NCBI GenBank assembly: GCA_034521445.1
Contig: JAXHMM010000005.1
Coordinates: forward strand, 248,001 to 312,000
Origin: Balneolaceae bacterium
GTDB lineage: Bacteria > Bacteroidota > Rhodothermia > Balneolales > Balneolaceae
Length of the DNA: 64,000 nucleotides
Direction of reading: 5' to 3'
The notes beneath the pieces were generated by a model, which had not been told where the DNA came from, made no database searches, and was given only the letters and a program-made list of their open reading frames with translations. Position numbers and translations under genes: made by a program. Position 1 is the first letter of the stretch. Each line of letters starts with the position of its first letter. Positions 12,243 to 23,527 of this stretch are shown in pieces.

Positions 12243-12351
12243 AGGCACCGTGTGAAACTTCCCTTCCTGTACGCTATATTACATAGGTACTTTTGCATCG
12301 GCCCTCCTCTATATGACCAAGCCGGAGCGCACAAACCCATCGCGCCACCCA

Positions 12352-12370
12352 TTCGGGACCACGTCCCGAA
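12352..12370. terminator. Perfect 8-bp inverted repeat after rodA
   Basis: TTCGGGAC-CAC-GTCCCGAA is a perfect hairpin about 110 bases after the rodA stop. It lacks a T-run, so it could be a factor-dependent terminator, a processing signal or a protein-binding site. Confidence 0.35.
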
Positions 12371-12390
12371 GAAAGATCCGCCCCGGCCCT

Positions 12391-12603
12391 ACCTAGTTTT
12401 ACATACATAGATACACCTAGTACAAGATTAGGCGGATAAACCTATATACATCATCCCACAAAAAACGTATCCTAGTTAAAAATCACAGACAGTTTATCAG
12501 GGGGGATTCCCCTCCAACGATTCTCGATGCGTGGGCTGAGATTGCCTGATGAAGGCAGTCGTGCCGGGACGGGGACGCACGGGGCACGGTTACGTAGCTA
12601 GGA
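12391..12603. repeat. CCTAG sites upstream of the response regulator
   Basis: ACCTAGT occurs at 12391 and 12415, TCCTAGT at 12470, and the reverse form CTAGGA at 12598. Two more lie downstream of the regulator gene: ACCTAGT at 13347 and reversed CTAGGT at 13374. A related string CCTATATAC is present at about 12440 and again just before the 13347 site. CTAG is a rare tetranucleotide in many bacterial genomes, so six sites around one regulator gene suggest binding sites, perhaps for the regulator itself. Confidence 0.45.
12499..12603 (+). promoter_or_regulatory. Candidate structured leader of the response regulator gene
   Basis: Three perfect short hairpins occur in order: AGGGG/CCCCT (12499-12513), TGCCT/AGGCA with loop GATGA (12543-12557), and CGTGCC/GGCACG (12560-12588). 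The loop of the third contains ACGCA, which can pair with TGCGT at 12528-12532 and would make a pseudoknot. It does not fit any riboswitch class I can recall. The pattern CTGAGAT, GCC, GGCAG, CCGG also appears in the leader of the KaiC-like gene. Confidence 0.35.
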
Positions 12604-12628
12604 ACTATCAGTACCACCTATTTCATCT

Positions 12629-13273
12629 ATGGCATCGGTTACAATCCTGATCGCGGTCTACTACGAACTGGTCCGTGACGGTATTGAAAAGCTGCTGGAC
12701 GGCCAATCCGGGCTATCGGTCGCCGACACGGTGCAGAACTCCAAAGAACTTGCCTCCTACGACTTTCCCGGGGGGGCCGACCTGCTGGTCCTGGACCTTG
12801 ACATGCCTGACCTGGATGCCCGCAATTTCATTCACGGACTGCGCCGGGAACATCCCGACGTCCACGTCCTGGCGCTGAGCGACCAGGCCGACGCCGAAAC
12901 GGCTCGCGCCGTCATGCGGGTGGGCGCCTCGGGCTATATGATGAAAAAACGGGGCGTGGAAGACCTCGTCAAGGCCATCGAGAATATTGCCGGGGGCGGA
13001 CAGTACGTCTGCGACGACACCCTCCGGCTGCTGATTCAGCAGAGCGGGACAAGCCATGACGGGGCGCTCGAATCGGACATCCTCACCGATCGCGAGATGG
13101 AGGTGCTGCGTGAAATCTGCGGGGAGCTTACCAACAAGGAGATCGCCGAAAAACTCTCCATCAGCGTCCGCACGGTGGACGCCCACCGCCGCAACCTGCT
13201 TCAGAAGACGGGCGCACGCAACACGGCCGGCCTGGTCAAATACGCGATAAAGCATGGCCTTTACGAGCCGTGA
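12629..13273 (+). CDS. LuxR/NarL-type response regulator with degenerate receiver
   Basis: A 214-residue two-domain regulator. The receiver (residues 4-120) keeps the likely phospho-acceptor D56 in LVLDLDMPD, S84 in LALSDQ and the lysine pair K106-K107 in GYMMKKRGV, but the acidic pair that normally binds Mg2+ after the first beta strand (usually DD in ILIADDHELVR) is V10-Y11 in ILIAVYYELVRDG. The C-terminal LuxR-type helix-turn-helix (about 152-211) is intact: LTDREMEVLREI, NKEIAEKLSISVRTVDAHR. It probably binds DNA but may not accept phosphate in the normal way. It lies upstream of, and in the same direction as, the KaiC-like ATPase and histidine kinase. Confidence 0.88.
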   Translation: MASVTILIAVYYELVRDGIEKLLDGQSGLSVADTVQNSKELASYDFPGGADLLVLDLDMPDLDARNFIHGLRREHPDVHVLALSDQADAETARAVMRVGASGYMMKKRGVEDLVKAIENIAGGGQYVCDDTLRLLIQQSGTSHDGALESDILTDREMEVLREICGELTNKEIAEKLSISVRTVDAHRRNLLQKTGARNTAGLVKYAIKHGLYEP

Positions 13274-13296
13274 AGGCCTGCCCCGCCTTTGCCGGC

Positions 13297-13328
13297 GCCG
13301 GATGGACGCCAAGCACCCACCGTCCGGC
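13297..13328 (+). terminator. Hairpin after the response regulator gene
   Basis: GCCGGATGG and CCGTCCGGC form a nine-base-pair stem with one G-U pair and a 14-base loop, 24 bases after the stop codon. No T-run follows, so terminator function is tentative. Confidence 0.35.
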
Positions 13329-13346
13329 TAGAACTTAGGCCTATAT

Positions 13347-13548
13347 ACCTAGTCATATTCACTTTATCTCCAACTAGGTGTTTTACGTCATCCCTTTTCG
13401 CGCTGCGCGTCTTATATTAACGTTAACATCGATTAATCCCATCCAATACTGATTCACTATCGCACGCCATCATCCTGACAGGCGTTAGCTTCGCCCAGGC
13501 ACCTGAGATGCCGGCAGCCGGTGGAGCCGCGTTAAACATTCAGCACCC
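13347..13548 (+). promoter_or_regulatory. Upstream region of the KaiC-like gene
   Basis: It holds two CCTAG sites (13347, 13374 reversed), TATATTAA (13413-13420, possible -7 element) overlapping the palindrome TTAACGTTAA (13417-13426), and then a GC-rich leader with hairpins ACGCC/GGCGT (13464-13485) and GGCA/TGCC (13498-13512). The last hairpin includes CTGAGAT followed by GGCAG and CCGG, the pattern shared with the leader of the response regulator. Confidence 0.4.
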
Positions 13549-14988
13549 ATGAGTACTGACGCACGCGTACCCACCGGCCTGGCAGGGCTGGATGAAATTC
13601 TGAAAGGGGGCTTCCTCCCAAATAACGCCTACTTGGTCCGCGGCGGACCCGGTACGGGAAAGTCCACCTTCGGCATGCATTTCCTTTCACACGGCGCGCG
13701 ACTGGGTGAAAAGGCGCTCTACATCACCCTTGGGGAATCCGAGAAAAACCTGCGACGCAACGCCGGACGCATGGATATCGACCTGGAGGGCGTGTATTTC
13801 GTGGACGAAAGTCCCCGGCAGGACCTGGAGGAGGAATCCGGCTCCTACGGTATTTTCCATTCGGGGGATGTAGAACAGCAGCCCATCCTGGAATCGGTGG
13901 TCGAAAAAGTCCGCGAGCTGGAACCCAACCGGGTCTTCCTGGACTCCATCACCATGCTGCGTTTCCTGAGCCGGGACCCCTTTCAGCTGCGCAAGACGGC
14001 CCTCTCGCTCATGAATTACATCGGCGATCGCGGGGGAACCCTGCTGATGACTTCCGAGACGGCCGACGACAAATCCGAACAGGACGCCACCTTCTGGGTG
14101 GACGGCAACCTCCACCTGGAATACAGTCCCGACTGGCGGAAATTGAGGGTGACCAAGTTCCGGGGCTCCGACTTCATGCACGGCACCCACGCCTTCCGGA
14201 TATCCGAACAGGGCATTACCATTTTCCCACGCCTGCAGCCCCGCAACTACGAGCGAAAGTTCGTCAGCGAAGCCCTCTCCAGCGGCATACCGGAGCTGGA
14301 CAACCTTCTGCACGGGGGACTGGAGAAGGGAACCATCACCATCGTAACGGGTCCCACCGGGACGGGCAAGACCAACATGGGGGTTCAGTTCCTAAAGGAG
14401 GCCGCCTCGAGGGGCGAACGTTCGGCCCTCTACACCTTTGAGGAGTCGGCCGAGACGGTGATCCGGCGATCGGAATCCATCAACGTGCCGATCCGACACA
14501 TGATCGAAAAGGGCAACCTGCGCATCGTACCGGTGGGACCCCTGACCTATTCGCCCGACGAATTTCTCAACATGGTGCGTACCGACGTGGAGGAGAACGG
14601 CACCACCATGGTGATGATTGACAGCATCGGCGCGTACAGCCTGGCTGTACGCGAGGAGAACACCCTGGAGAGATTGCACACCCTCACCGTCTACCTGCAG
14701 AACATGGGCATTACGGGACTGCTTCTTCACGAGGCCTCCAACATTACCGGCCAGTTTGAAACCACCGGCATGAACGCCAGCTACCTGGCCGACAACATTA
14801 TATTCCTGCGCTACATGGAAATGGAGGGCGAACTGCGCAAGGTCGTGGGCGTACTCAAGAAACGCATGAGCGATTTTGAGCGCAGCATCCGCCACTTCGA
14901 GATCACCTCGGAGGGACTCCAGGTGGGCGGGCGCCTCGACAATCTGCGGGGCATCCTGACCGGCCTGCCGGAGCAGATGCAAAGCTGA
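13549..14988 (+). CDS. KaiC-like double RecA-fold ATPase
   Basis: A 479-residue protein made of two tandem KaiC/RecA-type ATPase domains. Domain I has Walker A GPGTGKST (33-40) and Walker B Asp D132 in VFLDS; domain II has Walker A GPTGTGKT (268-275) and D358 in VMIDS. The paired catalytic glutamates are present in domain II (FEES) while domain I has LGES with only one. Where cyanobacterial KaiC carries phosphosites S431/T432, this protein aligns as S411-Y412 (NASYLADNII). KaiA and KaiB are not in the window. The kinase gene starts six bases after the stop, so the two are almost certainly one operon, which suggests the ATPase state is read by, or controlled by, the kinase. Confidence 0.9.
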   Translation: MSTDARVPTGLAGLDEILKGGFLPNNAYLVRGGPGTGKSTFGMHFLSHGARLGEKALYITLGESEKNLRRNAGRMDIDLEGVYFVDESPRQDLEEESGSYGIFHSGDVEQQPILESVVEKVRELEPNRVFLDSITMLRFLSRDPFQLRKTALSLMNYIGDRGGTLLMTSETADDKSEQDATFWVDGNLHLEYSPDWRKLRVTKFRGSDFMHGTHAFRISEQGITIFPRLQPRNYERKFVSEALSSGIPELDNLLHGGLEKGTITIVTGPTGTGKTNMGVQFLKEAASRGERSALYTFEESAETVIRRSESINVPIRHMIEKGNLRIVPVGPLTYSPDEFLNMVRTDVEENGTTMVMIDSIGAYSLAVREENTLERLHTLTVYLQNMGITGLLLHEASNITGQFETTGMNASYLADNIIFLRYMEMEGELRKVVGVLKKRMSDFERSIRHFEITSEGLQVGGRLDNLRGILTGLPEQMQS

Positions 14989-14993
14989 TTCCC

Positions 14994-17222
14994 GTGTCCT
15001 ACGACTTCGCACACATATCGCCAGGCGCTGCTCAGGACCGGAAGACCGCCAAACCGGTGATCCTGGTCTGTATGAGCAACGAGGCCGATTTCAGGCAGCT
15101 CAGCAACAGAATGTCCGACAACTACCTGGTGGTGCAGTCCAACCGCGGGCTGGAGAGTATCCGTTTTGATCTCTGCCTGGCCGACCGTTCCTACCTCCAG
15201 GAAAACCTGGGCGCGGTCCGCCGATGCCGGGAGTCCTCCGCCCCTGCCTTCCTGCCCTTCGTGCTGCTGGAACATGATACCAGCTGGCTCGGCCACGACG
15301 ACCCGGTGATGAGCCTGGTTGCCGACGTGGTTCCGGTACCCGTCTCCCCCACCATCCTGCGCTCCCGGCTGGATACGCTGCTGCAGACCCGTTCCTACTC
15401 CCTGCAACTGGTGCGGCAGAACCGCAAACTGAACGAGGAGCGCTCCTTCATCAACCGCGCCATCCAGAGCCTTCCCGGACTCTTTTACGTAATGGACGAC
15501 AACCTGAACATGGTCCGGTGGAACGAAAACCTGGAGCGCGAGCTGGGTTACGGCGGAGAGGAGCTTCGCCAGATGAAACCCACTGATTTCGTACAGCCGG
15601 GAGAGGGCCCGCGCGTGCGCGCCGCACTGCAACGGGCCATAGAACACGGCTCGGCGGAACTGGAGCTGAACCTCAGGTCCAGCAGGGGCGACTTCATGCC
15701 CTATTTCGTAACGGGAAAGGTATTCGAACGCAATGGGGAGAGATTCCTCGTAGGCACCTGCACCAACCTCACCGATCTCAGGGACGCTGAATCCGAACGG
15801 GACCGGCAGGCCAGTCTGCTGCAGAACCTCTTCGAGCACTCCCCCACCGCCATTGCGCTGCTGGACGATGAGGAGCGGGTGGTCTCGGTGAACCGGCGAT
15901 TCCAGAGCATGTTCGGCTACACCGAATCGGAAGCGAAAGGCAGGATCATCAACGAACTTATCACCCCTGAAGGAGAGGAGGTGGACCAGCATGAGCTGCT
16001 GGAACATCACGAGCAAACAGGGGATAAAATGCAGTTCGAATCGATGCGCCGTCACAAAGACGGCAGCCCGGTACCTGTGCTCATTGGCGCCGTGCCTATC
16101 CGCAACGGGGACACCTCGGAATCGCTCGGCAGCTACGTTCTCTACACCGACATGAGCCTGCAGAAAGCGACTGAGGAAAAGCTCTCGGACAGCCGGCAGC
16201 GCTGGGAAAGCCTGGTAAACAACGATCCCGATCTTATTCAAATCACACGCCCGGACGGCATAATCCTGTATATTAACCCGGCCGGCGCCCGCTTTTACGG
16301 CGTGGACGACCCGGAAGAACTGAAGGGGGAGAACTACTTTGACCTGCTGGACATCGACGACACGGCCAAGGCGCGCGACCGCATCCGCCGCGTGCTGAAC
16401 GGGGAGACCTTCCCCCCCAGGGAGTACCGCATCACCACGCCCGACGGCATCGACCGGTACATTGAGGTGCAGGCCGTCCCCATTACGCTGGAGAACGGGG
16501 AGGCTGCCCTGCAGCAGGTGGGCCAGGACCTGACCGAACGTATCCGCTACGAGCAAGAGCTGGAGCAGTCACTGACAGACCGCGAGGTGCTGCTCCAGGA
16601 AATCCACCACCGCGTCAAGAACAACCTCGCCGTGGTATCGGGCCTGCTGCAGATGCAGCGCTTCGATTCGGAAGATCCCGATCTCATTGAAGCCCTTCTT
16701 GCCAGCGAAATGCGCATCAAATCCATGGCCCTCATCCATGAGAAACTCTACAACTCCAACTCCCTTTCCAACATCTCCCTGGAGCCCTACCTCAGGGACC
16801 TGATCGATACCATGCAGGGCACCCTCGAGCTGGGATCCCGGGTGGAGGTCGAGCTGACCTGCGACGCCATTGCCCTGAACGTCAACCAGGCGGTGCCCTG
16901 CGCCCTTATCCTCAACGAGCTGCTCTCCAACGCCCTCAAGCACGCCTTCGGCAAGGAGGAAGAGGGACAGATCTACATTCGTGTGCAAAAGGAGGGAGCA
17001 AAAGTCCGTGTCACCGTACATGACAGCGGACCAGGCATCCCGCCTGAGGTGACGGAGGAGGAGGGCGGATCGATGGGCTTTACCATCGTACGCACGCTGG
17101 TGGACCAGCTCGGTTCCAGCCTTCGGATCGAAGAACGCCAGGGCGCGCACCTCTCCTTCGCCTTCGAGCCGGAATCGAGCCGCGGCTCATCCAGCGCACT
17201 GGTAGAACGCGAAGAAGGCTAG
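14994..17222 (+). CDS. Multi-PAS sensor histidine kinase, HisKA_2 type
   Basis: A 742-residue kinase with no clear membrane segment, so it is probably cytoplasmic. Order of parts: an N-terminal receiver-like region without a convincing phospho-Asp (about 20-130), three PAS domains (about 150-270, 285-395 and 405-520), the HisKA_2 dimerisation and phospho-acceptor segment with H538-H539 in EIHHRVKNNL, and a HATPase_c domain with NELLSNALKHAF, DSGPGIPP and GSMGFTIV motifs. The GTG at 14994 is chosen from its six-base spacing to the KaiC-like gene. A natural hypothesis is that it signals to the response regulator encoded just upstream; the degenerate receiver makes that uncertain. Confidence 0.9.
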   Translation: MSYDFAHISPGAAQDRKTAKPVILVCMSNEADFRQLSNRMSDNYLVVQSNRGLESIRFDLCLADRSYLQENLGAVRRCRESSAPAFLPFVLLEHDTSWLGHDDPVMSLVADVVPVPVSPTILRSRLDTLLQTRSYSLQLVRQNRKLNEERSFINRAIQSLPGLFYVMDDNLNMVRWNENLERELGYGGEELRQMKPTDFVQPGEGPRVRAALQRAIEHGSAELELNLRSSRGDFMPYFVTGKVFERNGERFLVGTCTNLTDLRDAESERDRQASLLQNLFEHSPTAIALLDDEERVVSVNRRFQSMFGYTESEAKGRIINELITPEGEEVDQHELLEHHEQTGDKMQFESMRRHKDGSPVPVLIGAVPIRNGDTSESLGSYVLYTDMSLQKATEEKLSDSRQRWESLVNNDPDLIQITRPDGIILYINPAGARFYGVDDPEELKGENYFDLLDIDDTAKARDRIRRVLNGETFPPREYRITTPDGIDRYIEVQAVPITLENGEAALQQVGQDLTERIRYEQELEQSLTDREVLLQEIHHRVKNNLAVVSGLLQMQRFDSEDPDLIEALLASEMRIKSMALIHEKLYNSNSLSNISLEPYLRDLIDTMQGTLELGSRVEVELTCDAIALNVNQAVPCALILNELLSNALKHAFGKEEEGQIYIRVQKEGAKVRVTVHDSGPGIPPEVTEEEGGSMGFTIVRTLVDQLGSSLRIEERQGAHLSFAFEPESSRGSSSALVEREEG

Positions 17223-19120: not shown

Positions 19121-19214
19121 ACCCCCGACTCCCCGACTCCCCGACTTTCGGACTTCCCGACTTTCGGACTTTCGGACTTTCGGACTTATAAGACTTTAAG
19201 ACTTTATAGACTTA
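19121..19214. repeat. GACTT repeat array 2
   Basis: About eleven units: a CCCCGACT motif repeated at the left edge, then several exact GACTTTCG copies, then AT-rich variants (GACTTATAA, GACTTTAA, GACTTTATA). The last unit, GACTTA at 19209-19214, includes the stop codon of the minus-strand skp gene (19212-19214). The array lies between that gene and its probable terminator. Confidence 0.9.
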
Positions 19215-19763
19215 AATACCGAGTTGCTGCATCACCTGGTCGGTGATGTCATTGTTCTGGCGCATATCCTGCGAGGCGTAGAGAATGATCATGTCGCCCT
19301 GGTAGGTGCGGGTATTCAGCACGTAGTCCAGACCCTGCTGCTCGGCCACCGCGTCGATGGCGCCCTGGATCTTCTCGAAGAGCGGGTTCAGCAGCTCCTG
19401 CTGCTTCTGCTGCACTTCCTGGTTGACCTGCTGCTCAAACTGCTGAAGGTCGGCGCTGAGCTGTCCCAACCGCTCCTCCTCCTTGGCAGCGGCCGCATCG
19501 GAGATGACAGCTGATTTCTGCTGGTACTCGGAGATAGCGGTCTGAAAATCCTGCTCCTTCTGGGCCAACTCGGCCTGTTTGCGTTCGCGGAAATTCTGCA
19601 GGCTCTGCTGCACCGCCGCAAAATCGGGCATGCGCTGAAGTACCGTAAGGGGATCCACGAAACCGATGCTGGTCTGGCGGACCTGGGCCTCCGTGGCCGG
19701 AACCCAGGCGGCCAGCCCTACGAATAGAGTGAGAATGAATAGCGTAATTGTGCGTCGTACCAT
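19212..19763 (-). CDS. OmpH/Skp family periplasmic chaperone (third copy)
   Basis: Skp-like proteins bind unfolded outer-membrane proteins in the periplasm and hand them to BamA. The 183 residues comprise a signal peptide (ending near TEAQ), the family start IGFVDPLTVLQRMPDF, a long Gln/Glu-rich coiled coil (about 55-130) and a C-terminal beta segment (GLDYVLNTRTYQGDMIILYAS). It is the last of three related genes downstream of bamA. The sequence resembles copy two more than copy one. Its stop codon falls inside a GACTT repeat array. Confidence 0.88.
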   Translation of the reverse strand: MVRRTITLFILTLFVGLAAWVPATEAQVRQTSIGFVDPLTVLQRMPDFAAVQQSLQNFRERKQAELAQKEQDFQTAISEYQQKSAVISDAAAAKEEERLGQLSADLQQFEQQVNQEVQQKQQELLNPLFEKIQGAIDAVAEQQGLDYVLNTRTYQGDMIILYASQDMRQNNDITDQVMQQLGI

Positions 19764-19809: not shown

Positions 19810-20397
19810 TCAGTTGCCGCCCGAATTGCCCTGGGCTGCGTTGCCGTTGCCGGTGGTGTCGGGCGACTGGCTGTTCACGCGCTGGATCACCTGCTGGGTA
19901 ATGTCCATACTGGAATCGGCCGAGTAGTAAACAATGTTGCTGCCCTGGGCGGTGATCTCACTAAGCACCATGTCCAGCCCGTTCTGCTGGGCGATGGCCT
20001 GGATGGCCTGGTTGATACGCTCGTAGATGGGTCCCAGCAGCTCCTGGCGCCTCTGGGCTATCTCCTGCTGGGCGGTTTGTTGAAGCTGATTCAGGTTCTG
20101 TTCCATCTGGGTCAGCTCCTGCTCCCGCTGGTTGATCTGATCCTGGGTCATGCCGGACTGGTTCTGCTGGTAGGTGGCCACTGCGTTTTGGAATTCGGTG
20201 GAAGCCTGCTGCAGCTCCTGCTGCTTCTGCTGGATGAAGGTGTTCAGCTGGTCCTGGATCTGCTGGCGCTCGGGAAGCTGGTTCATCACTTCCTGGGTGT
20301 TTACGAATCCGATTTCGATGCGATCCACCTGGGCACTGGCCAGGGAGACGCATAAAAACAGTAAAAGACTTGCAAGTCCGGTTAGCTTTCTAAACAT
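19810..20397 (-). CDS. OmpH/Skp family periplasmic chaperone (second copy)
   Basis: A 195-residue secreted protein with a signal peptide (cleavage near ASAQ), the pattern IEIGFVNTQEVMNQLPERQQ, a strongly Gln-rich coiled coil (about 45-125) and the C-terminal NGLDMVLSEI / NIVYYSADSSMDIT strands. The last 20 residues are Asn/Gly-rich and low complexity. It follows copy one after 89 AT-rich bases, where a separate promoter is possible, and precedes copy three by 46 bases. Confidence 0.88.
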   Translation of the reverse strand: MFRKLTGLASLLLFLCVSLASAQVDRIEIGFVNTQEVMNQLPERQQIQDQLNTFIQQKQQELQQASTEFQNAVATYQQNQSGMTQDQINQREQELTQMEQNLNQLQQTAQQEIAQRRQELLGPIYERINQAIQAIAQQNGLDMVLSEITAQGSNIVYYSADSSMDITQQVIQRVNSQSPDTTGNGNAAQGNSGGN

Positions 20398-20486: not shown

Positions 20487-21032
20487 TCAATTGCTTGTTT
20501 CATCGGGGCTGATGCCCATCTGACGGAGCACCGCTTCGTTGAGGTTCCACTCCTCGCCGCCGAAAAGCATGGATGACTGGCGGGCCCGGTCAAACACAAA
20601 GTCAAACTCCTGGCGCTGCGCCACCACGCCGACAGCTTCCATGATCCGCTGCTGAAGCGGCTTCAGGAGCTCCTGCTGTCTCTGAAAATAGTCACCATCG
20701 GGTCCAAAGTGCTGCTCCATGTAACGCTGGCGCTCCTGCACAAGGGCTTCGATCTCGCCCTGTCTTTGTATACGTACGGAATCGCTGAATAGTATCTCGC
20801 GTTGCTGAAATTGCGCTCTCAGGCGGTCAATTTCATTCTCCTTGGAAGCAAGTTCCTTTTTCCAGTCCGCAGCAAGAAGCTGCAACTGTTCACGTATGCC
20901 CTCGTAGTCAGGCAACTTCTCCAGGAGCTGGTCGGTGTTTACATATCCGATTTTTTGCTCCTGCGCCTGGGCTTCGGGCGCCGCAAGCGCAGCCAGCATC
21001 ACGGCCAGCACTATACAGGCTGTTCGTCTCAT
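20487..21032 (-). CDS. OmpH/Skp family periplasmic chaperone (first copy)
   Basis: A 181-residue Skp-like protein directly coupled to bamA: its ATG at 21032 overlaps the bamA stop as ATGA, which decides this start over a longer frame. A signal peptide (MRRTACIVLAVMLAALA) is followed by QKIGYVNTDQLLEKLPDYE, a charged coiled coil (about 50-120) and the usual C-terminal region. It is more divergent from the other two copies in the coiled coil, with fewer Gln residues. Confidence 0.88.
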   Translation of the reverse strand: MRRTACIVLAVMLAALAAPEAQAQEQKIGYVNTDQLLEKLPDYEGIREQLQLLAADWKKELASKENEIDRLRAQFQQREILFSDSVRIQRQGEIEALVQERQRYMEQHFGPDGDYFQRQQELLKPLQQRIMEAVGVVAQRQEFDFVFDRARQSSMLFGGEEWNLNEAVLRQMGISPDETSN

Positions 21033-23527
21033 TGGAAAGGCGAGCCGATGTTGAAGAGGAACTGCCACTCGCCGGCGCGCACTCCTGTGCCCGGTATGCC
21101 GTCCATACGATAACCGTAACTCAGGTCTACCAATCCGAGGACAGGCAGAAAGAGGCGCACGCCCACGCCGGTAGCTCGCTTCACATCGAAGGGCGAAAAG
21201 TCCTCCACGTTAAGGTAGGCGTTGCCCGCATCAATAAAGGTGTAGGGAATCACCTGAAGCTGCTGTTCGTTGACCGCGCGGATGCGCAGCTCCATGGTAT
21301 ACTTGCTGAAAAGGCGCCCTCCCACCGCCTCGCCATCCTGGCGGGGCGATATGGAGCCGTTGCGTCCCCCGGGAAAGCCCCTCAGGTCGATGTTGTCCTG
21401 AAGGAAACTCTGTCGCTGCTGCATGGGCGTGCCGCCCAGGATATAGCGCTGGAATTCACTGCGTCGTTTACTTCCCAGATAGCCCAGGTAGCCGAATTCG
21501 ACGGTATTGGTCAGCACCAGGTTGCCTATAATGTTCGTATGGTTTTCATACAGCGTCTTAGCCTTGTAGTACTGGGAAAAGCCGGGAAGAGGAGGCGCCA
21601 CTTCCACCGAGAACTGCAGCTTGGAACCCCCGGTTGGGGCGATGGGATTATCCACCGAATTGCGTTCAAGCATGTGTCGCAGGCTGATGATGCTGGACGT
21701 CCCCTCTGCCAGGAAGCTGGTACCTCCGGTCACATCGTAATTCTGGTAGGAGAGTGAAAGTTGCTGACTGAAGTAGTCGTCCGGCCATGTGAGGCGACGC
21801 CCGATGGAGACGCTGCCCTGGAAAAGCTCGTTGCGGATGTCGCTGTTGCGGTAGCGGATCAGATCGTAGCTGGCGTTCACGCCCAGCGAGATGGGATTTC
21901 CACCCAGCCAGGGTTCCTGAAACCCGGCGTTGAAACTCTTGTAACCGCTCCCGGTAATCTGGGCGCCCACGGTGAGACTCTGTCCGTCGCCGGAGGGAAT
22001 GGGGTCCCATCCCTCCCCGCGCAGGGCGCGGGAAAGTGAAAAATTGTTGAAGTTGAAGCGGGTGGACAGAATCAGACCGATGCCGCGCCCTCCGAAACCG
22101 CCGGAAAGTTCGAAATTGTCGGTACTCTGCGATTCGTTGAGTTGGTAGAAGATGTCTACCGTATGATTCTGCTGGTCGGGACTCAGGTTGGGACGGACCG
22201 ACTCAGGCTGGAAGTAGCCGAGCTGTCCCAGTTCCCGTACGGTGCGGATCACCATCGCCTCATTATAGACCTTGCCGGGGATGGTGCGCAGGGAGCGCCG
22301 CACCACGTCGTCGTGCGTCTTGGTATTGCCGGAGAAGGAGACGCGGCGTATTTCCGCCTGTTCGTCCTCAGTCATGGTAATATGGATATCCACCGAATCT
22401 CCCTCCACCATCTGTATGTCGGGAAAGGCCTGGAAAAAGAGGTATCCCCGATTGCTGTAGAGCGTGCGGATGTCGGTCTGCGGGCCGCCCTGACCCTGCC
22501 ATTGACCCAGGTTTTTCTGGAACTTCGTCTGGTTGTAGACGTCCCCCTTTTCCATGTCCATGATCTGCCGGAGTGTCTGCGTCGGGAAGATTGTATTGCC
22601 CTCGAACGTCAGACTGCGTAGGTGGTACTGGGGACCTTCGGCCACCTCCATGTTCACACGAATGCCCTGCTTGCCCTCCTTGTACTCGTAGGTATAGACC
22701 GAATCGTCCAGAATGCGGAAGTCGATATACCCGTTCTGGGTATAGAAATTCTCCAGGTTGGTCTGCGCCGTCTCGAAATCCTCCTCCTTGAAGAGCTTCT
22801 TGGAGAAGAACTTCCACCACTTGTCTTCCTGAATGGCATCCAGCTCCTTACGAAGAGTCTTGTCGCTGAAGTTCTCATTGCCGGTGAAGGTGATGTCCTT
22901 GATCTCAAGGCGTTCCCCCGGGTCAATGTCGAAGATCAGGTCTACCCGGTTGGTCACCGTATCCACCTCGCTGGTGCTTACCTCCACCTGGGTTGACCAG
23001 TACCCCTTTTGCCGGTAGAAGCGGTTGATGGTATTCACGGCCTGGGCCTCCGAGGCCTCGGTCACCGCAAATCCGGGCTGCAACATAATGCGCTCGCGCA
23101 GGTCCTCGCGCTGGGAGCGCTTGATATTGCGCAGTTCGTAGCCCTGCAGCCGCGGCTGTTCCTGCAGCGAAATGCGCAGATAGATGTTGGTGCCCTCCAA
23201 CCGGGTCTGCGTAATGCAGATGTTGGTAAAGAGCCCCGAGTTGTGGAGCTGGCGGATGGCGTTGGGAATGTCCTCGCCCGGGTGGGTAATGGTGCTGCCA
23301 ATGTCCAGCCCGGACTGGGAAATCACGAAATTGTCACTCACGGTCGCATTGCCCTCCACCTCCACGTCCTGTACCGTATACTGGGTCGGATTGACCTGGA
23401 GGGGATTGGTGATCTGAAAGTCAGAGGAACAGGTCTGAACCTGGGCTTGGAGGTCGGCGGCGCCCAGGACAAAGAGCATGACAATAAGAAAACCGAATGT
23501 TGAGGTGCCTGAGAACTCCTGAAACAC
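21029..23527 (-). CDS. bamA: Outer-membrane assembly factor BamA
   Basis: BamA is the essential Omp85 insertase of the outer membrane. The 832-residue protein has a signal peptide (LIVMLFVLGAADLQAQ), several POTRA repeats (about residues 45-400; examples ITFTGNENFSDKTLRKEL and LTFEGNTIFPTQTLRQIM), then the C-terminal beta barrel with GGFGGRGIGL and the conserved FSLG-like end of barrel strands, finishing in Phe-Gln. The start is GTG at 23527, 30 bases after uppS. Gene order uppS-bamA-skp is typical for the FCB group. Confidence 0.95.
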   Translation of the reverse strand: MFQEFSGTSTFGFLIVMLFVLGAADLQAQVQTCSSDFQITNPLQVNPTQYTVQDVEVEGNATVSDNFVISQSGLDIGSTITHPGEDIPNAIRQLHNSGLFTNICITQTRLEGTNIYLRISLQEQPRLQGYELRNIKRSQREDLRERIMLQPGFAVTEASEAQAVNTINRFYRQKGYWSTQVEVSTSEVDTVTNRVDLIFDIDPGERLEIKDITFTGNENFSDKTLRKELDAIQEDKWWKFFSKKLFKEEDFETAQTNLENFYTQNGYIDFRILDDSVYTYEYKEGKQGIRVNMEVAEGPQYHLRSLTFEGNTIFPTQTLRQIMDMEKGDVYNQTKFQKNLGQWQGQGGPQTDIRTLYSNRGYLFFQAFPDIQMVEGDSVDIHITMTEDEQAEIRRVSFSGNTKTHDDVVRRSLRTIPGKVYNEAMVIRTVRELGQLGYFQPESVRPNLSPDQQNHTVDIFYQLNESQSTDNFELSGGFGGRGIGLILSTRFNFNNFSLSRALRGEGWDPIPSGDGQSLTVGAQITGSGYKSFNAGFQEPWLGGNPISLGVNASYDLIRYRNSDIRNELFQGSVSIGRRLTWPDDYFSQQLSLSYQNYDVTGGTSFLAEGTSSIISLRHMLERNSVDNPIAPTGGSKLQFSVEVAPPLPGFSQYYKAKTLYENHTNIIGNLVLTNTVEFGYLGYLGSKRRSEFQRYILGGTPMQQRQSFLQDNIDLRGFPGGRNGSISPRQDGEAVGGRLFSKYTMELRIRAVNEQQLQVIPYTFIDAGNAYLNVEDFSPFDVKRATGVGVRLFLPVLGLVDLSYGYRMDGIPGTGVRAGEWQFLFNIGSPFQ

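Follow-up and report, generated by a model that had tools for sequence, protein, structure and literature searches.

A candidate KaiB-free KaiC signalling module in Balneolaceae with a receiver-fold domain on its sensor kinase

In the cyanobacterial clock, the histidine kinase SasA binds KaiC via a KaiB-like thioredoxin-fold domain. KaiC occurs far more widely than clocks do, and little is known of its roles in the absence of KaiA and KaiB. KaiC3-type proteins autophosphorylate without KaiA (PMC5520375), and the kaiC-kaiB-PAS kinase cluster of Rhodopseudomonas palustris shows a weak rhythm (PMC4794148). Here, we analyzed a 64,000-nucleotide stretch of DNA (the window; positions 248,001 to 312,000 of contig JAXHMM010000005.1, assembly GCA_034521445.1) from Balneolaceae bacterium, whose source genome (G000, Balneolales) is 97.8% complete. 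In this window, successive + strand genes flanked by rodA and rnhB encode a LuxR-type response regulator (RR), a double-domain KaiC and a sensor histidine kinase. We lean towards the reading that these genes form a KaiB-free signalling module, in which KaiC would control the kinase through an N-terminal domain (N-domain) of receiver fold and the RR would control the module's own promoters. The original prediction, made from the letters of this DNA, had described an RR, a double-domain KaiC and a three-PAS HisKA_2 kinase in one direction, with the RR 275 nucleotides upstream of KaiC; this spacing was confirmed, and the coordinates and Pfam domains agreed with the arrangement. The KaiC and kinase genes are separated by 5 nucleotides (14989-14993), and the kinase starts with GTG.

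The N-domain, of approximately 130 residues, had been missed in the original prediction and has no Pfam or NCBIfam match in the window kinase. AlphaFold2 produced a confident receiver fold for it (predicted local distance difference test, 87; predicted template modelling score, 0.81), and the top VIA-align match of this model was PleD (Z 14.6, 2.3 Å over 124 residues). The domain is without the acidic pair of ordinary receivers, and its phosphoacceptor position always holds Asp. Among 129 Balneolales genomes, strong matches to the N-domain (E<1e-10) were found in 12 of the 12 genomes with this KaiC and in 2 of the 117 others (G079 and G087), a co-occurrence across the order with a Fisher p of 3e-15 when genomes are counted as independent of shared descent. 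Furthermore, an N-domain profile built from Balneolaceae only matched KaiC-side kinases of haloarchaea and Acaryochloris (E 1e-30 to 1e-12), although the cores of those kinases are HisKA, unlike the HisKA_2 core of the window kinase. All 21 N-domain matches on plasmids, which came from 12 of 17 whole plasmid records in a collection that samples haloarchaea unevenly, lie beside a KaiC gene, with two intervening genes in one case.

These results suggest that the N-domain couples the kinase to KaiC. We tentatively propose, with slightly less than even confidence, that it is a previously undescribed KaiC-docking domain, present in archaea, cyanobacteria and Balneolaceae, which would put kinases with different cores directly under KaiC control without KaiB and outside a clock. 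As a kinase domain that goes with KaiC in archaea as well as in bacteria, the N-domain provides a concrete candidate for the contact point in KaiC signalling. Several observations weigh against this proposal. G087 has an N-domain kinase and no KaiC seen nearby, and G079 retains an intact N-domain kinase downstream of a decayed kaiC, a remnant of 128 codons with an internal deletion (L167:6129-6515); the kinase may therefore function independently of KaiC. In addition, two haloarchaeal plasmids with this KaiC type gave no N-domain match, and in both of them the gene after KaiC encodes a response regulator that stands alone. The N-domain might accordingly be unrelated to KaiC binding, and sense something else or dimerise the kinase, the genes having stayed together through block movement of the operon. 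The N-domain kinases of G079 and G087, which have no working KaiC nearby, fit this explanation, as does the patchy distribution, which suggests block transfer. However, the N-domain and KaiC stay paired in archaea, a cyanobacterium and Balneolaceae while kinase cores and PAS numbers differ, and we regard an unrelated N-domain as improbable.

The KaiC type of the window is present in 12 of the 129 Balneolales genomes, all of one family (Balneolaceae) and spread across genera; a thirteenth KaiC-positive genome, G091, carries the other KaiC type and is outside the 12. A profile search of the genome contigs with a single protein gave no match, and a five-row alignment gave four relatives. The named relatives of the window KaiC come from metagenome-assembled genomes of Aliifodinibius and Balneola. 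A kinase of the same build directly follows KaiC in each of the 12 genomes, and the genes flanking the pair vary between genera. A LuxR-type RR was found just upstream of KaiC in 6 of the 11 genomes that could be judged (window, G011, G006, G034, G073 and G072); G029 was left out of this count because a contig end cuts its locus. Thus, of the three-gene module originally predicted, for which a comparison of gene neighborhoods had been suggested, the KaiC-kinase pair is supported as a conserved unit and the membership of the RR is weaker. In a further genome (G464, locus L084), a distant KaiC of the same class (36%) has a HisKA_3 kinase gene immediately after it; the N-terminal region of this kinase is unrecognised.

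The window KaiC has two RecA-like domains with the P-loops GGPGTGKS and GPTGTGKT. Its CII domain keeps the P-loop, the catalytic EE pair and the equivalents of T426 and S431, and has Tyr at the T432 position, as reported for some KaiC3 proteins (PMC5520375). Such S/Y phosphosites are the rule in its branch, whereas S/S or S/T occurs in the Bacteroidota KaiCs that are linked to KaiB. The first catalytic Glu of CI is Gly or Val in 11 of 11 full-length Balneolaceae members of this KaiC type, and the window KaiC, at 199 of 546 bits, does not reach the curated cut-off for circadian KaiC. Alignment to solved KaiC revealed no KaiA-binding tail in the window protein, which ends 2-3 residues past the last aligned residue; solved cyanobacterial chains extend 20-30 residues further. 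Furthermore, a search for KaiB (PF07689) gave no match in the genome of the window and none across the 12 genomes that carry this KaiC, which are drafts (10 of the 12 at a completeness of at least 95%). The same search was positive in three other Balneolales genomes, showing that it works in this order.

Because no KaiB was detected and KaiC is without the KaiA-binding tail, a Kai clock is unlikely; a clock with KaiB was rejected on the KaiB result. A timing device might also take the form of a reduced Kai clock or an hourglass, with the phosphorylation state of KaiC read by the kinase. The KaiC fold, the retained CII catalytic residues and T426/S431 equivalents, the KaiA-independent autophosphorylation of KaiC3-type proteins and the weak rhythm of the R. 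palustris cluster are all in its favor. Against these stand the lack of KaiB in the window genome and in every genome with this KaiC type, the missing KaiA-binding tail and the loss of the first CI catalytic Glu in 11 of 11 proteins, which make any timing device highly improbable; the timing role raised in the original prediction was not borne out on these same grounds. In its features, the module resembles a signalling switch more than a clock. The residues kept in CII make an energy-state switch possible.

The RR has the receiver and GerE (LuxR) output architecture of the NarL/FixJ group but fails to show its Mg-binding acidic pair. Alignment placed AVYY at this pair, with D56, S84 and K106 kept, so that the receiver is indeed atypical, as first described. 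Among the six copies of the atypical RR, four (window, G006, G034 and G073) have no acidic residue at the Mg site and two (G011 and G072) have one Glu. In a search of 20 genomes, matches to this RR group at E<1e-105 were confined to six KaiC genomes, where it adjoins KaiC. Ordinary phosphotransfer from the kinase to the RR would be doubtful, since the receiver is without a Mg site; this, and the 5 of 11 genomes (G065, G003, G076, G103 and G109) in which the RR does not adjoin KaiC, count against the RR as a part of the module. Further signalling genes lie at some loci with the atypical RR: a canonical RR lies directly ahead of the atypical RR in G011 and G072, in G011 with a HisKA_3 kinase ahead of it as well. 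In G006, G034 and G073, a gene for a small protein resembling a degenerate receiver lies between those of RR and KaiC (L038:9227-9664, L039:9339-9623 and L078:6876-7235, respectively); the window has none.

The RR and KaiC leaders both carry the dyad RCCTA-N8-11-TAGGY, and this common operator-like element ties the RR to the KaiC promoter. A dyad weight matrix built solely from other genomes was scanned over the 64 kb window; the third-best dyad scored 12.9, versus 20.0 and 16.0 for those of the two leaders. These leaders hold every ACCTAGT word of the window (four) and all but one of its six CCTAGT words; they are therefore unusual, as had been noted from the letters. Among the fetched loci, TAGGYNTTTTACGTCA was found in four KaiC leaders (those of the window, G006, G073 and G072) and nowhere else. 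A riboswitch or structured RNA in the window leaders was rejected (no Rfam match; fold z-scores of -0.7 and -0.6). Unlike the window leaders, the KaiC leader of G006 (L038:8897-9046, - strand) is predicted to form an unusually stable RNA fold (z -2.84).

The same dyad was found in a KaiC-less island that is common in Balneolaceae (L141-L152 and L154) and consists of a presumed membrane PAS kinase, a canonical LuxR-type RR, a REC-like protein of approximately 130 residues and a PAS HisKA_2 kinase. A strict dyad lies between the RR and the second kinase in 8 of 11 such islands (0.03 expected from genome density), and the recognition helix is nearly identical between the RRs of the KaiC island and the KaiC-less island. 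The shared dyads and recognition helix suggest that this RR family is likely to bind the dyad and that the module is likely autoregulated, the self-regulation that a shared dyad predicts. As a possible origin of the N-domain, the short REC-like proteins that stand alone in the KaiC-less island were considered; their similarity to it was weak (probability 78).

It may be argued that only KaiC and the kinase form the module and that the RR is a mere co-regulated neighbor, with another protein binding the dyad or the kinase signalling to a different regulator. Consistent with this, the RR is not next door in five genomes and has no Mg pair, and the dyad also precedes kaiC in G003, G076 and G065, where no RR adjoins. 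However, the island of each of these three genomes encodes a paralogous RR whose recognition helix is almost the same, and that island also has the dyad in G003 and G065; the atypical RR was found only together with KaiC. We consider the neighbor explanation unlikely, at about one chance in four, and retain the RR as the probable arm of the module that acts on its promoters.

Ten strict dyads were found in the genome of the window; those examined include the RR leader, a site upstream of mraZ and one inside a coding sequence. The site upstream of mraZ is a perfect dyad, ACCTATTGGTTTATAGGT (L106, G000:C6:639693-639710), which may be due to chance. A regulon based on strict dyads in this genome was rejected: genome-wide, the reversed pattern occurs more often than the dyad, and the pattern alone is therefore no guide to a regulon.

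Altogether, in the KaiB-free module that we favor, KaiC, with a CII ring that keeps the ATPase/autokinase residues, would be co-produced with the HisKA_2 kinase and would engage it at the receiver-fold N-domain. The nucleotide or phosphorylation state of KaiC would then set kinase activity, the PAS domains would supply a second input, and the RR would serve as DNA-binding output or autoregulator at the dyads before its own gene and the kaiC-kinase pair. The features of the locus are collected in Table 1. Elsewhere in the window, a tandem run of three OmpH/Skp-like genes lies on the - strand (19212-19763, 19810-20397 and 20487-21068).

Table 1. Features of the RR-KaiC-kinase locus, in window positions.
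Feature	Position	Strand	Basis or remark
ACCTAGT half-site, RR leader	12391-12397	+	motif count in window
Operator-like dyad ACCTAGTACAAGATTAGGC, RR leader	12415-12433	+	matrix score 20.0, first in 64 kb window
Conserved box CCTATATACATC, downstream of RR-leader dyad	12441-12452	+	only in RR leaders of window, G034 and G073 among fetched loci
RR (LuxR/NarL-type regulator)	12629-13273	+	GerE E 2.9e-17, Response_reg E 1.9e-15
ACCTAGT half-site, KaiC leader	13347-13353	+	motif count in window
Operator-like dyad ACTTTATCTCCAACTAGGT, KaiC leader	13361-13379	+	matrix score 16.0, second in window
Conserved box TAGGTGTTTTACGTCA, KaiC leader	13375-13390	+	TAGGYNTTTTACGTCA only in KaiC leaders among fetched loci
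Double-domain KaiC, 479 residues	13549-14988	+	PF06745 x2, 270 bits
Sensor histidine kinase, 742 residues	14994-17222	+	three PAS, HisKA_2 E 2.7e-24, HATPase_c E 8.1e-16
Receiver-fold N-domain of kinase	15048-15440	+	AlphaFold2 fold; structural matches; KaiC linkage
Kinase core, HisKA_2 (residues 536-608) and HATPase_c (637-724)	16599-17165	+	phosphoacceptor motif EIHHRVKNN

The nearest plasmid-encoded KaiCs are haloarchaeal (Halorussus vallis, 50.2% identity over 98%), followed by those of Acaryochloris (44%) and of rhizobia and Paraburkholderia (36-37%). In the KaiC tree, the Balneolaceae, haloarchaeal and Acaryochloris proteins are joined (98/98), apart from the KaiB-linked Bacteroidota KaiC. 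A likely source is exchange, in either direction, between salt-loving bacteria and archaea. Haloarchaeal KaiCs of this type usually adjoin sensor kinases, HalX or HalOD1 proteins, and the KaiC-kinase pairing is therefore not unique to Balneolaceae. In Haladaptatus (L173 and L175), the gene that overlaps this KaiC type encodes a stand-alone response regulator and not a kinase. The earlier suggestion of an undescribed module thus holds in part: the pairing is also haloarchaeal, and the novelty lies in the Balneolaceae version, the KaiC-linked N-domain and the operator. Our search found no paper joining KaiC with Balneolaceae; the N-domain may be noted in a 2017 mBio survey of archaeal KaiC that lay beyond that search, and priority for the domain is uncertain.

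Compared with known systems, the locus resembles SasA-RpaA in associating a histidine kinase and a DNA-binding regulator with KaiC. It differs in that the window kinase has a receiver-fold N-domain, its genome has no KaiB-family match, and the regulator is of LuxR/NarL type whereas RpaA is of OmpR type. The R. palustris cluster likewise has a KaiC without KaiA beside a PAS histidine kinase, but it includes KaiB and S/S phosphosites, in contrast to the KaiB-free, S/Y arrangement and shorter KaiC C-terminus of the window (PMC4794148). Bacteroidota KaiC-KaiB-KaiB clusters, including that of G091 from the same family, also have a KaiC with two domains and, in many cases, a kinase gene close by. 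However, they form a separate branch (100/100), their KaiC is approximately 28-30% identical to that of the window, with a longer C-terminus and S/S or S/T sites, and KaiB adjoins. The KaiC-less Balneolaceae island shares the RR family and the dyad before its second kinase, but has no KaiC, a canonical Mg site in its RR and a kinase without the window-type N-domain. Finally, the haloarchaeal KaiC and kinase systems (for example, Halorussus vallis NZ_CP100002.1 and Haloferax larsenii NZ_CP078065.1) are alike in a KaiC that is 48-50% identical over its full length, in S/Y phosphosites and in the same N-domain on the KaiC-side kinases. They differ in a HisKA rather than HisKA_2 core and in HalX/HalOD1 rather than LuxR-type neighbors, and most of their KaiCs keep the CI Glu pair, of which the Balneolaceae proteins have lost the first.

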